Source of the DNA: Dehalobacter restrictus DSM 9455
GTDB lineage: Bacteria; Bacillota; Desulfitobacteriia; Desulfitobacteriales; Syntrophobotulaceae
DNA length: 64,000 bases
Assembly (NCBI RefSeq): GCF_000512895.1
Contig: NZ_CP007033.1
Span: 2,653,001 to 2,717,000 of the forward strand
Direction of reading: 5' to 3'
Shown here: in pieces, positions 18,972 through 49,484 of the stretch
Layout: the number at the start of each line of letters is the position of its first letter
Position numbering within the stretch: position 1 is the stretch's first letter
Made by a program: the position numbers and the translations under genes
Notes under the pieces: model-generated
The model's database searches: none
What the model saw: the letters and a program-made list of their open reading frames with translations, nothing else
What the model was told of the DNA's origin: nothing

Positions 18972-19000
18972 TTGACAAATAAATCCTTAAAACATAGTAT
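18972..19000 (+). promoter_or_regulatory. Promoter of the tetR gene
   Basis: TTGACA at 18972-18977 and TAGTAT at 18995-19000 with a 17-nt spacer form a near-consensus promoter. A perfect palindrome begins at the next base. Confidence 0.8.
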
Positions 19001-19022
19001 TTATACTGACTAGTCAGTATAA
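19001..19022. promoter_or_regulatory. Palindromic operator for the TetR regulator
   Basis: A perfect 22-bp palindrome with half-site TTATACTGACT covers the expected transcription start of the tetR gene. TetR-family proteins usually bind such a site next to their own gene, so autorepression is very likely. Confidence 0.82.
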
Positions 19023-19040
19023 AGTGTAAAGGAGAAAGGG

Positions 19041-40017: not shown

Positions 40018-40072
40018 AAGAGAAAAGACTTCCTGCTGCCTTTCGAAAAGGCAGCAGGAAGTCTTTTCTCTT
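40018..40072. terminator. Very long bidirectional terminator hairpin
   Basis: A perfect stem of about 26 bp (arms 40018-40043 and 40047-40072, CGA loop) lies between two convergent genes, with purine-rich left and T-rich right ends. It is unusually long for a terminator. Confidence 0.88.
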
Positions 40073-45503: not shown

Positions 45504-46688
45504 GTGTTTTCGGAAAAAGTAATCAATAATTTAAAGAATGCCTCCTGGATTAGAGCAATGTTTGAGGAAGGCGAAAGGCTCGCCAAAATTTATGGACGCG
45601 AAAACGTCTATGACTTCAGTTTGGGCAATCCCTTTTCTGAGCCGCCAGAAGAGGTCATTGAATCTCTGAAAAATTATGTCACCGGGAATTATAAAGGAAT
45701 TCATAAATACATGAACAATGCCGGCTATCCCGAAGTCAGAGAAAAAATTGCTCAGTCGCTCCGGAGTGACAGCCAGATCGGACTTACACAAGATAATATC
45801 ATTATGACTGTCGGGGCTGCCGGTGGGCTGAATGTTGTCCTGAAAGCACTTCTGAATCCCGGTGAAGAAATAATTATCTTTGCACCTTATTTTGTGGAAT
45901 ATATTTTCTATACGGATAACCATGGTGGGAAACCTGTCATTGTGCCGCCGGATCCCCGGACACTCGAGCCGGACCTGGATGCCCTAGAAAAAGCGGTTTC
46001 GCCCAAAACAAAGGCGATTGTCATCAATACCCCGAATAATCCAACCGGCATTGTCTACAGCAAGGAGAAGCTGGAACAAATCAAAGAAATCCTGCAGAAA
46101 AAAGAAAACGAATACAGTACGATCATCTATATTATCTCCGATCAGCCCTACGACCAGATTGTCTATGACGGGATGAAAATTCCGAACATCCTATCGATTT
46201 TTGAAAACAGCATTATTGTCAATTCCTTCAGTAAATCACTCGGCCTTGCCGGAGAGAGAATAGGATATATTGCAGCGAGCAGCAGAATTAAAGACGCTGA
46301 CGTGCTGAATAACGCCTTAAGCTTTTGCAACCGAACGCTGGGGTTTGTCAATGCTCCCGGATTGTTCCAGAAAGTTATCGGTGATTCTCTGGACGTCAAA
46401 ACAGATACCGCAGATTATCAAAAGAAAAGAGATTATTTATATGAGCATCTGACTGCGCTTGGTTTTGAATGTGTCAAACCACAGGGAGCCTTTTACCTTT
46501 TCCCCAAAGCACTGATTGAGGACGATGTTGAATTTGTCAAAAGAGCCGTTAAATATAATTTACTGCTTGTCCCAGGAAGCGGATTTGGCTGTCCCGGTCA
46601 TATCAGGATCTCCTACTGCGTAAGTATGGATACCATTGTAAATTCCATTCCTGCGTTTGAAAAACTGGTACAGGAATTCCGATCCTGA
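45504..46688 (+). CDS. PLP-dependent class I/II aminotransferase
   Basis: The 394-residue product has the AspC/aminotransferase fold: YDFSLGNPFSEPPEEVIESL, NTPNNPTGIVYSKEKL, the PLP lysine in VNSFSKSLGLAGERIGYIA and the C-terminal arginine region GHIRISYC. AAGGAG lies 9 nt before GTG 45504; ATG 45498 is only 2 nt from it and less likely. Amino acid specificity cannot be read from sequence alone. Monocistronic with its own terminator. Confidence 0.9.
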   Translation: MFSEKVINNLKNASWIRAMFEEGERLAKIYGRENVYDFSLGNPFSEPPEEVIESLKNYVTGNYKGIHKYMNNAGYPEVREKIAQSLRSDSQIGLTQDNIIMTVGAAGGLNVVLKALLNPGEEIIIFAPYFVEYIFYTDNHGGKPVIVPPDPRTLEPDLDALEKAVSPKTKAIVINTPNNPTGIVYSKEKLEQIKEILQKKENEYSTIIYIISDQPYDQIVYDGMKIPNILSIFENSIIVNSFSKSLGLAGERIGYIAASSRIKDADVLNNALSFCNRTLGFVNAPGLFQKVIGDSLDVKTDTADYQKKRDYLYEHLTALGFECVKPQGAFYLFPKALIEDDVEFVKRAVKYNLLLVPGSGFGCPGHIRISYCVSMDTIVNSIPAFEKLVQEFRS

Positions 46689-46730
46689 TAGCTGATCGAA
46701 ACGAGCTCTTGTAAAAGAATTGCTTATTTA

Positions 46731-46776
46731 GGAGCATCGCTAATTACTTGAATTCGTATTCAGCGATGCTCCTTTT
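46731..46776 (+). terminator. Terminator after the aminotransferase gene
   Basis: GGAGCATCGCT (46731-46741) pairs perfectly with AGCGATGCTCC (46762-46772), then TTTT. The 20-nt loop is large but contains GAATTC, which may pair further. Confidence 0.85.
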
Positions 46777-46854
46777 ACAGTTGATTTGGTAACACCAGAA
46801 TATCAAAAATTCTGTTTAACGCGGTCGCATCAGGGCTGGCTTTGATGCCGGCGC

Positions 46855-47094
46855 TTAGGCCTGAGGCGGGTCATATAAGTCATCGGTAGTCGTATCGATG
46901 ACCTTGATGTCTCGTACACCTGTCAGGGCTCCGCTGGATGTCATGAATATATTGCTTTCCACAATCGTATTCATAACGGCCAGGGCCTCGGTCTGATTCA
47001 GGTCCTCCCGCGGATCAGGAATCGTAATGGTGAACGTCTTCCCGCCGGCGGTGGCAAAACTTAACCTTGCCACTTTGCTTGTGGTAATGGCCAT
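46855..47094 (-). CDS. DUF2922 small protein
   Basis: The 79-residue product matches DUF2922: VARLSFATAGGKTFTITIPD, PREDLNQTEALAVMNTIV, and a C-terminal RDIKVIDTTTDDLYD. The family's function is unknown and it normally follows a DUF1659 gene, as here. GGGGGT lies about 10 nt before ATG 47094. Base composition is more GC-rich than the flanking genes. Confidence 0.87.
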   Translation of the reverse strand: MAITTSKVARLSFATAGGKTFTITIPDPREDLNQTEALAVMNTIVESNIFMTSSGALTGVRDIKVIDTTTDDLYDPPQA

Positions 47095-47131
47095 GGGCTT
47101 CTTACCCCCTCTCCCCGGATTTTCCTGCCGG

Positions 47132-47356
47132 TCACTCCATGATCAGCTCAAAGTTCTTGCGCAGTATCACGTCGAGCACCGGATGCAGCGACAGTCCGAA
47201 TAAAGCCTGCACAACCTCGAAAAGCGCCTGTTCCGTAGCGTCGGGCCGTACATAACTCAGGCTTTTCTGCCTGCTGATCGGGGCGCCAGCGGAATTAGTA
47301 CCCTCCTGGTAGGCTACGACCAGCGCCGAATTCAAAGGTACCGCTACAACTGCCAT
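47132..47356 (-). CDS. DUF1659 small protein
   Basis: The 74-residue product matches DUF1659: MAVVAVPLNSALVVAYQEGT, RQKSLSYVRPDATEQALFEV and LHPVLDVILRKNFELI. The frame is open upstream, but ATG 47356 has AGGTGG 8 nt before it and gives the family's length. Paired with DUF2922, 37 nt downstream. Function unknown. Confidence 0.87.
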   Translation of the reverse strand: MAVVAVPLNSALVVAYQEGTNSAGAPISRQKSLSYVRPDATEQALFEVVQALFGLSLHPVLDVILRKNFELIME

Positions 47357-47454
47357 TCCTTTCGCCACCTTTCTTTCGTATGGACAAGCCGTGCTTACCG
47401 GCATGTCCCTATACTTTATGATTTTGCTTGTCCAAAAGTTACCATTAAAATGAA

Positions 47455-47496
47455 GCATGTCCCAAATTATTCAACGTTGAATAATTTGGGACATGC
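47455..47496. repeat. 42-bp perfect palindrome
   Basis: Arms of 21 bp (GCATGTCCCAAATTATTCAA plus C, and its reverse complement) meet with no spacer. A third GCATGTCCC lies at 47401-47409. It abuts the broken 5' end of the DUF3102 gene. Two abutting transposon ends or an excision scar would look like this; a cruciform-prone regulatory hairpin is the alternative. Confidence 0.85.
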
Positions 47497-47499
47497 GTT

Positions 47500-48246
47500 G
47501 TGCTGAAGGAAGCCAAAGACCTGCTTCCGCATGGCGGATGGGGCAAGTGGCTGGAAGAGTCGGTGAGCTACTCCCAGATTACGGCTGATCGGCTTATGCG
47601 TATTTATAGCGCCTACGGGAGCAATCAGCCCTCTTTACCCGAATCCGACGCGCAGGCGCAGGAACTGCCGAATTTGACCTCCTCTCAGGCTCTGATTCTT
47701 CTGGGACTCCCGCCGGAAGACCGGGCTCAGTTCCTTGTCGAAATGGATGCCGAAGGCCTGAGCACGCGAGCGTTGAAAAAGGCTGTTGATGACTGGAAAC
47801 TAGCCCGGCAGGACAAAGACCGGGCCTTTGAGGAACGGGATCAGGCCCTACAGGAAAAAGAGGATGTCCGTCAAAAGCTGGATGACGAAAAAGGCAAGAA
47901 TGTTGAGTTAACCGCAGAGCGCGACAAGTTGAAGGCTGAAACGAATCATCTGAAGCAGACCAAACAGAAACTCGAACAGGAGATTGAGAACGGGAAGGCG
48001 GCCTATGATAAGCTCAAGGAAAGGATCGGTTATAAAAATATCGAAAAAATGAGCGCTGGGCTTACGGAAGCGCATAACAAGGCGGAAGCCAACAAAATCG
48101 CATTTTTATACGACACCCTGAACAAAACATTTAAGGAACTGGCCTATGAGATGACGCGGTTTGCCGCCAAGAATCCGGACGCACACGCCATGTATCAAGA
48201 AAAAGTGAGGGACTTTCTGCTCAAATCGATAAAGGAGAAATTGTGA
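47500..48246 (+). pseudogene. DUF3102 protein, 5'-truncated
   Basis: Encodes 248 residues beginning VLKEAKDLLPHGGWGKWLEE and SVSYSQITADRLMRIYSAYG, which is the middle of a DUF3102 domain. In intact members about 40 residues (ending in a GRRLxEAKxLLPHGxW pattern) precede this point; here they are missing and the frame opens directly after the palindrome, with no ribosome site before GTG 47500. The rest is intact: a Pro-rich linker, a long coiled coil (about 100-180) and a helical end. DUF3102 genes are frequent on mobile elements. It may still be translated, but the N-terminus is gone. Confidence 0.75.
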
Positions 48247-48263
48247 AGCTTAAGGCTGGCTGC

Positions 48264-49484
48264 TCAGGATTTTAATTCTGCCAGTGTAACCTTAACGTCT
48301 TTTGTGTTCTCCTGACGATAATAGGTAATGGTGACCGTATCTCCGACCTCAAATTTAAACAATTCATGGGTCATTTCAAGAGAACTGGTGATCTCAACAC
48401 CATTGACTTTGGTAATGACATCTCCGGCACGAATCCCGGCTTTATAGGCAGGCCCTCCGGTTGAGACCGCTGAGATATAGGCGCCAGCAGGCCAGCTCTG
48501 CTGAGAAGCCCATTCAACAGTATACCGTTCATCGATCGAGACCAGAATGCCTGGATGAGCAGCATAGCCTTTCTTGATCAGCTGTTGGATCGTCGGCCAG
48601 GCATCCGTAATCGGAATCGCAAAGCCCATTCCTTCATAGCCGGTGTCTTGATTCTTCGCCGCATTAATGCCAACGACCTTTCCATGATAATCTACCAGCG
48701 GTCCTCCGCTGTTTCCGGGGTTGATCGCCGCATCGGTCTGAATCAGATTAAAACTTGCTTCTCCCTGCAGTTCCAAAAAACGGTTCGTCGCTGAAATCAC
48801 ACCCGTCGTCACAGAGCGGGCAAAATCTTCTCCACCTGGATTCCCAATCGCAACCACAGGTTCTCCGACTTGAAGTGTGCTGGAATCTCCGAGACTGACT
48901 GCAGTCAGTTTGTCGGCGGATATTTGAACAACGGCCAGATCTGTCCGCGCATCTCCTCCCACGAGTTTACCTGTGATATTACGCCCGTCAGCGAGACTTA
49001 CCACCAGTTTCTCGGCATCTTCAATAACGTGATTGTTGGTCACAATAAGCCCTTTCTGCGCATCGATAATAAAGCCCGATCCGCTGGCTACTTCGGCAAG
49101 CTCACTTGACCGGCCAAATATATTACCGCCGCTCTGGAAATTGGCAATCCCCACGACAGCCGGACCTATTTTTTTCGAAATTTCTACCACCGGATACGTG
49201 TTGCCATTACCGTCTGTACTCGTCGAAGTATTCGCGACCGCCGAGGTTGTGACGAGTGAATTCGTGTTAGCCGAACTGCCGCTCTGGTTCTGGATACTCA
49301 TGATTTCCGGATAGATTACCGGGGCTAAAGTGAGAGAGGCCGTCCCGCCCAACAAGGCGCTGATGATCGCGACAACCGCAATAACCATGATCCCCGGTTT
49401 CTTTCTCTGCGGCCGCTCCCCATTGTACGGATAGTCATGATAAGCGTTATAGTCTTTATAATGGTTATTGTTGTTAAAGTCCAC
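48264..49484 (-). CDS. HtrA/DegP-type serine protease, membrane anchored
   Basis: Surface quality-control protease. The 406-residue product has an Asn/Tyr-rich cytoplasmic tail, one membrane anchor (about 31-58), a Ser/Thr/Asn linker, a trypsin-like domain with H162 (TNNHVIE), D192 (RTDLAV) and S269 (NPGNSGGP), and one C-terminal PDZ domain (GPAYKAGIRAGDVITKVNGV). GTG 49484 has AGGTGGGG about 7 nt upstream and is preferred over GTG 49496. Convergent with the DUF3102 gene, with a 17-nt gap and no terminator. Confidence 0.93.
   Translation of the reverse strand: MDFNNNNHYKDYNAYHDYPYNGERPQRKKPGIMVIAVVAIISALLGGTASLTLAPVIYPEIMSIQNQSGSSANTNSLVTTSAVANTSTSTDGNGNTYPVVEISKKIGPAVVGIANFQSGGNIFGRSSELAEVASGSGFIIDAQKGLIVTNNHVIEDAEKLVVSLADGRNITGKLVGGDARTDLAVVQISADKLTAVSLGDSSTLQVGEPVVAIGNPGGEDFARSVTTGVISATNRFLELQGEASFNLIQTDAAINPGNSGGPLVDYHGKVVGINAAKNQDTGYEGMGFAIPITDAWPTIQQLIKKGYAAHPGILVSIDERYTVEWASQQSWPAGAYISAVSTGGPAYKAGIRAGDVITKVNGVEITSSLEMTHELFKFEVGDTVTITYYRQENTKDVKVTLAELKS

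Follow-up and report, generated by a model that had tools for sequence, protein, structure and literature searches.

A perfect palindrome beside a truncated DUF3102 gene is a candidate binding site for the DUF3102 protein

Introduction

In a 64-kb stretch of the Dehalobacter restrictus genome (hereafter the window), a gene for a protein with a domain of unknown function, DUF3102, lacks its beginning, and a perfect palindrome stands almost directly in front of the break. The locus raises the question of what the palindrome is, and whether it was left by the event that broke the gene. The initial annotation took it for fused transposon ends in an acquired segment. Here, we compare the locus with related genomes, with other DUF3102 genes and with predicted structures, and we argue that the palindrome is very probably the cognate site at which the product of the adjoining DUF3102 gene binds.

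Results

A 42-bp palindrome lies between divergent genes

The features of the locus are as follows (window coordinates).

46726..48250, no strand: block lacking in three congeners; the convergent genes on its two sides encode an aminotransferase and a trypsin/PDZ (HtrA-like) protein
46730..46773, no strand: left end of the block, with an imperfect inverted repeat of 18 bp that resembles a terminator (repeat scan)
46855..47094, minus strand: DUF2922 gene (Pfam match)
47132..47458, minus strand: DUF1659 gene, divergent from DUF3102 (reading frame as listed; Pfam match)
47382..47433, no strand: three further GGACAAGC / GCATGTCC / GCTTGTCC motifs (47382–47390, 47401–47409, 47426–47433) in the DUF1659 leader
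47455..47496, no strand: perfect 42-bp palindrome; inner 24 bp (AAAT...ATTT), a putative DUF3102-type core site; outer 9 bp GCATGTCCC on either side
47500..48246, plus strand: 5′-truncated DUF3102 gene, 248 aa, GTG start (Pfam profile; C-terminal coiled coil in the model of a relative)

Two 21-nt arms (47455–47475 and 47476–47496) are 100% complementary and meet with no spacer, as the initial annotation had stated. In a scan of the window for perfect arms of at least 11 bp with loops of 0–4 nt, this is the longest spacer-less palindrome, the runner-up (19000–19023) having 12-bp arms; simple letter-count arithmetic (about 64000 × 4^-21) puts the expected number of chance 21-bp matches in 64 kb below one. 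A terminator-like hairpin at 40018–40072 has longer perfect arms, of 26 bp, around a 3-nt loop.

The additional GCATGTCCC copy that had been reported 54 nt to the left is present at 47401. It falls within the motif array of the DUF1659 leader, which is similar and in place in two relatives; the GGACAAGC/GCTTGTCC array is perhaps a second binding site. Since the DUF1659 domain starts only at residue 36 of the listed frame, a start codon near 47356 is likelier, judging from the sequence.

The DUF3102 gene has lost its start and the palindrome is intact

The frame to the right of the palindrome matches the DUF3102 profile (PF11300) with 123.5 bits against a cut-off of 24.4, over profile positions 32–128 of 129. 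Because the match begins only at position 32, the frame is headless, lacking the first ~31 residues of the domain. The frame itself opens after a TAA inside the right palindrome arm, and its first start codon, the GTG at 47500, follows the palindrome after three bases (47497–47499). Two relatives, L053 and L054, have the same gene order with an intact DUF3102 gene, and at the same place a palindrome of equal length whose letters are different but still complementary. The distance from palindrome to homology block is 5 nt in the window and 188 and 191 nt in these relatives, which means that ~183–186 bp have been lost in the window. The deletion begins 3–5 bp outside the right arm and took away the leader, the start codon and ~31 residues at the head of the domain, leaving the palindrome site itself whole. 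That the gene is broken had thus been annotated correctly.

The same comparison bears on the origin of the palindrome. The initial annotation had proposed terminal inverted repeats of a transposon brought head to head by excision or a composite event, and had named a same-site palindrome beside an intact DUF3102 gene in relatives as the finding that would contradict this; L053 and L054 have exactly that arrangement. It had also suggested looking for the arm elsewhere as a transposon end. In the 2,943,336-base single-contig genome, the 18-mer GCATGTCCCAAATTATTC with up to three mismatches occurs in its own two arms and at three places with three mismatches each, and we found no end elsewhere.

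The block is absent from three congeners

In three congeners (G001, G004 and G002), the flanks of the locus are joined at 46725/48251 (48261 for G002) around 68–85 bp that hold a strong terminator-like hairpin, and both flanks are 91–96% identical to those of the window over at least 1.3 kb. The block 46726–48250 therefore looks like an addition at this place, and the earlier suggestion of an acquired segment is supported as far as this empty site goes. Pfam likewise confirms DUF2922 and DUF1659 as neighbours. The raised GC content cited for acquisition is real (0.504 for 46726–48250, 0.444 for the window) but unexceptional: among 250 windows of 1.5 kb, eight are at or above 0.504, and the right-hand neighbour gene has 0.500. 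For mobility of the DUF2922-DUF1659-DUF3102 block there is this one empty site, and a mechanism was not found. A profile search of the home genome returned 17 DUF3102 matches, so the window gene is one of many copies.

Palindromes with the same outer arms recur across genomes

We searched 61 genomes for the pattern GCWTGTCCC-N(22-26)-GGGACAWGC and found it at 35 places in 17 of them, with no match to the reversed control. The W bases agree between the arms in all 35, although the pattern allowed them to disagree. In an alignment of 24 of these palindromes (those of 42 bp, excluding near-duplicates and other lengths), 94.6% of the 504 cells are paired, 82 are changed on both sides and one is a G-U.

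Complementarity that is held at variable positions and up to the centre could also be expected of an RNA attenuator hairpin in the leader, or of an extruded DNA hairpin recognised by its shape. A single G-U cell against 82 both-side changes is unlike an RNA helix and points to symmetry at the level of DNA. Searches against Rfam over 46600–48400 gave only matches far under gathering scores at the palindrome, and over 17 palindrome loci just a tmRNA and a group II intron, both in L068. The half-site sequence, moreover, tracks the recognition helix of the neighbouring protein (see below), which a shape-only signal would not do. We regard a hairpin or cruciform as a very unlikely explanation. A tRNA-Asp called by ARAGORN at L187 1448–1522 (minus strand), overlapping a palindrome, is probably a false positive.

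A DUF3102 frame lies within 1.6 kb of 10 of the 35 palindromes, for nine of them within 90 bp. The other 25 have none within 1.6 kb, and some of these share 70–134 nt with one side of the DUF3102 cassette. For 10 of the 25 standalone palindromes we named the nearest gene with Pfam: none was a transposase, and the genes encode DUF218, DUF4317, a PPIase, leucyl-tRNA synthetase, an acetyltransferase, PriA, an IMS polymerase, spore photoproduct lyase, an exporter and a histidine kinase. By eye, the flanks of standalone palindromes tend to extend the palindrome, and no direct repeats were seen. Five palindromes of one genome (L073–L076 and L094 in G057) have homology on just one of the two cassette sides, and the homology ends within ~10 bp of the palindrome edge, near the place where the window gene is cut; from such alignments, palindrome edges look like recurrent breakpoints. 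The palindromes of L090 and L102 occupy corresponding places in two congeners, in a flank 74% identical over 357 bp; neither has a DUF3102 frame nearby, and changes in one arm are compensated in the other. Near the L102 palindrome there is a tmRNA.

Dispersed copies with conserved outer 9 bp, and homology between copies of one genome that stops within ~10 bp of the palindrome edge, are what transposon ends might leave. Against this, the arms differ between copies yet stay complementary, the single copies have ordinary nearest genes in the 10 cases named and flanks that extend the palindrome in place of direct repeats, and sites are kept beside intact genes, as in L053 and L054, or inside genes near one fixed place. 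The co-change of helix and bases described below also speaks against fused transposon ends, to which we give hardly any credence.

The same 25 of 35 geneless palindromes, together with 56 matches to a palindrome model on both strands, at ~28 places, in one genome, raise the alternative that the repeat is a REP-like selfish unit that hitches on DUF3102 cassettes, with the gene as its helper. No enzyme for such movement was found among the loci examined; we return to this alternative with the standalone sites of the home genome.

Most DUF3102 genes carry a palindrome upstream or within the gene

We collected 80 DUF3102 loci by protein and scored the best palindrome upstream of each gene (score of at least 12 in 150 nt) and within it (at least 8 in 105 nt). 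Sixty-nine loci could be classed: 24 have an upstream site only, 38 an in-gene site only, two both (L134 and L177) and five neither (L112, L141, L176, L178 and L184), with the proviso that L113 was classed as upstream through a terminator-like hairpin. In a separate palindrome scoring of the loci, some upstream matches (L165 and L170) also look like terminators. The two loci with both sites are perhaps in an in-between state while the site changes place. In equal windows 1–1.6 kb downstream, 2 of 191 reach the upstream threshold and 8 of 191 the in-gene threshold, and the downstream control of the separate scoring gave 1 of 76. Random windows from the same loci reach a score of 10 in 32 of 300 (300-nt windows) and 18 of 300 (160-nt windows); as these may fall on the sites themselves or on terminators, we used the downstream controls instead.

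The in-gene site has a fixed place, ~220–280 nt from the start of the gene or domain and before a conserved N-L-[STN]-[YF] motif, where it codes for the variable linker between the two helical halves of the DUF3102 domain. Upon synonymous recoding (200 trials per locus), no equally good palindrome arose in 34 of 64 loci, and one or two of 200 did in three more; the other loci in this test include those with an upstream site. Sites are 16–56 bp long and differ between DUF3102 paralogs of one genome.

Among 16 matching phage and plasmid records, all seven that were fetched have an in-gene palindrome with a score of 8–12. Three come from phages, two of Streptococcus and one of Paenibacillus (the last with just 16 bp), and four from plasmids of Alicyclobacillus, Geobacillus, Cytobacillus and Paenibacillus. 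The genes of the two Streptococcus phages (L227 and L228) have AAATTCGAGTACGTACTCGAATTT in-gene, perfect in L228 and with one mismatched pair in L227, and their protein has a different helix motif. A family search gave 22 loci, among which there is dependence (two congeners contribute 15, and several were already in the 80-locus set): the in-gene score is at least 8 in 15, 7 in two and 5–6 in five (L231, L246, L249, L250 and L251). For the 15 other DUF3102 domain matches of the home genome, the in-gene score is at least 8 in nine and 7 in one more; upstream of the gene, L039 shows a clear site and L049 a hairpin, possibly a terminator, and L048 has neither kind of site.

DUF3102 is predicted to contain a ParB/Noc-type helix-turn-helix domain

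We modelled an intact DUF3102 protein, L122 (residues 1–266), with AlphaFold from 30 aligned rows, namely the window gene and members of the 80-locus set. The model (mean pLDDT 87.4, pTM 0.51) has helices from residue 10, is all-helical over the first ~110 residues and forms a coiled coil from residue 114. Foldseek ranked the Noc DNA-binding domain bound to its site (6y93) first (probability 1.00, E 0.028), and no match reached E 0.001. With VIA-align, in which a Z under ~13 may reflect only a common helical arrangement, 6y93 scored Z 10.0 over 109 residues at 2.4 Å, followed by Spo0J (9.7 and 9.3) and ParB (9.3); Z is 9.3–10.0 for the entries 6y93, 1vz0, 4umk and 6t1f. Helical domains of Raf1 stand close behind (9.1 and 8.8), and KorB scored 6.7. 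A PDB sequence search with DUF3102 gave coiled-coil matches. From the model, we predict a ParB/Noc-type helix-turn-helix domain in DUF3102. The N-terminal ParB/Srx CTPase domain is absent from the 266-residue model, and in four intact proteins DUF3102 is the sole Pfam family over the cut-off; lacking the CTPase domain, DUF3102 is not filed here as a ParB or a Noc.

Recognition helix and half-site change together

The second helix of the predicted helix-turn-helix (residues 63–76 in the L122 model) starts with the motif [YF]S-x1-x2-T-A-x3-x4-L, x1 being residue 63. Eighty-seven loci match the motif, 74 of these have a called site and one was dropped for an N, leaving 73 loci in which residues x1 to x4 can be compared with bases counted from the palindrome centre. 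Residue x1 goes with base 8 without exception for four residues: Q with T (51/51), R with G (10/10), K with A (4/4) and E with A (3/3), 68/68 together. One locus has H with T, and proline at x1 (4/73) goes with mixed bases and no rule. Of the 44 loci with arginine at x4, 41 have C at position 4 and three are exceptions; R or K at x2 goes with G at position 6 in 45 of 49, and S or I at x2 with another base in 21 of 24. Proline excepted, the x1 rule is the same for upstream (21 loci) and in-gene (52 loci) sites.

We asked by parsimony how often residue and base change jointly on a tree (one FastTree tree built without the helix columns). With the reservation that odd-length palindromes may be one base off register, x1 and base 8 change together seven times against 1.25 expected, the top of 1032 pairs, and x4 and base 4 five times against 0.70 expected. 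The four helix columns rank 1, 8, 4 and 3 of 129 protein columns. The second-ranked pair joins position 7 to column 123, which lies in the linker, where gene and site overlap; other high columns are 142–145, likewise in or beside the palindrome-encoded linker, and 4, 6, 80 and 99 outside it.

The window gene is not among the 73 loci, as sites were sought at a greater distance from the frame than the one found here, where the frame is headless. The gene has the helix residues Q-I-D-R and its half-site has T at position 8, T at 6, T at 5 and C at 4, so that all four tendencies fit.

Sites without a gene

At position 2231857 of the home genome (G000), a 46-bp palindrome lies beside a DUF3102 stub. 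The same site holds an intact DUF3102 gene with an in-gene palindrome in G001 and G004, and a stub with a 44-bp palindrome in G002. As two congeners have the intact gene with its palindrome in place, the home-genome site is a remnant and no insertion, contrary to what a REP-like unit would suggest for the one standalone site that we followed. Its 22-bp core, on the other hand, matches letter for letter the site upstream of another DUF3102 gene, at 1985217, with no third place in the home genome at up to three mismatches, as might be expected if the palindrome were itself mobile. A like comparison in G002 found no exact second copy and one with three mismatches. The shared core may reflect service in trans or copying between loci. 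Overall, we think a REP-like selfish repeat doubtful, and leave it a small chance of being right.

At imperfect palindromes, one arm can be overwritten with a copy of the other by template switching, and this could make arms symmetric by mutation, with no selection. The arms of the G000 and G002 palindromes at this site differ at 6 of 21 positions, all compensated, in a place whose right flank is 96% identical, which looks like a one-step replacement. Template switching leaves unexplained the fixed place of the in-gene site, the symmetry beyond synonymous-codon expectation in 34 of 64 loci and the link with the helix residues. As the whole explanation of arm symmetry it is unlikely, in our estimate; new symmetric sites may well originate in this way.

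A second difference between congeners was seen at L219 2360–2405, compared with L216, L217 and L218: the home genome is without ~2.7 kb that are present in G002 between two palindrome-like places, and it has a palindrome at the join. The missing stretch holds genes for an ABC-2 transporter and a TetR-type protein (named in G001), and FtsZ-like and SpoIIGA genes lie within the same stretch of G001. Loss of a segment between two palindromes would also suit transposon ends, and counts on that side.

Discussion

We propose that the window palindrome is the address of the DUF3102 protein encoded beside it. DUF3102 would be a ParB/Noc-type helix-turn-helix protein that has a long C-terminal coiled coil and no N-terminal CTPase domain, as the structural model predicts. 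A dimer would read both half-sites, with x1, x2, x3 and x4 facing bases about four to eight steps from the centre, and a gene would usually travel with its own site, either in the linker codons or just upstream. In the window, L053 and L054, the upstream site sits between the divergent DUF1659-DUF2922 and DUF3102 genes, and the most likely use, though less certain than binding, would be control from there of the protein's own gene and its divergent neighbours, by repressing or organising this region, perhaps by loading at the site and then spreading, as ParB-like proteins do. Helix contacts would explain the inner 24 bp, but neither the conserved outer GCWTGTCCC arms nor the complementarity of the variable bases; these outer arms, and likewise the additional GCTTGTCC motifs of the DUF1659 leader, hint at a further contact or at another protein.

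Among the papers listed in full-text literature searches, judged by titles and the openings of abstracts, none dealt with the function of DUF3102 or with these palindromes, and a survey of ParB proteins does not mention the family (PMC12704722). The closest parallels are ParB-parS and Noc-NBS, whose DNA-binding fold DUF3102 shares by prediction. The sites parS and NBS are palindromic with a 16-bp consensus, and few residues set the specificity (PMC7383237), a resemblance to DUF3102 in both respects. In-gene sites have been described as well: parS-359 lies inside the parB gene of B. subtilis (PMC4442127) and a parS inside the parB gene of the Lactococcus plasmid pLP712 (PMC6156202). Unlike ParB and Noc, DUF3102 has no CTPase domain in its model, its sites are paralog-specific and span 16–56 bp, the home genome has 17 matches and 64 of 69 genes have a site. 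ParT of plasmid SCP2 is a ParB-like, CTP-independent protein with a helix-turn-helix and no CTPase domain that uses an 18-bp parS (PMC12260392), which is the architecture predicted for DUF3102; the likeness is one of description, and ParT works with a ParA and carries a C-domain of the type-I ParB kind, whereas DUF3102 has a long coiled coil.

We also considered a phage replication initiator with an in-gene origin. The O protein of phage lambda binds iterons in an origin inside its own gene. DUF3102 resembles it in having a putative binding site within the gene, and three phage DUF3102 genes lie in an early/replication region. DUF3102 has one palindrome, however, and not iterons, and each of the three phages has another gene annotated as the replication initiation protein, for which reason we set this reading aside.

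More broadly, and tentatively, since we hold it somewhat less probable than its opposite, DUF3102 may be an unrecognised, CTPase-less, ParB/Noc-like family in which nearly every gene has its own address, often written in the linker codons, in which the paralogs of one cell have come to use different addresses by way of a readable helix-to-base code, and in which some addresses outlast their gene and are served in trans by a different paralog. The binding-site reading itself provides a domain of unknown function with a probable biochemical role, a relative by fold and a defined target on DNA. Naturally occurring pairs of helix and half-site would be a ready test of how specificity changes in ParB/Noc-type proteins, and a protein-coding linker that is bound to stay palindromic would show clearly how two codes can share the same DNA.
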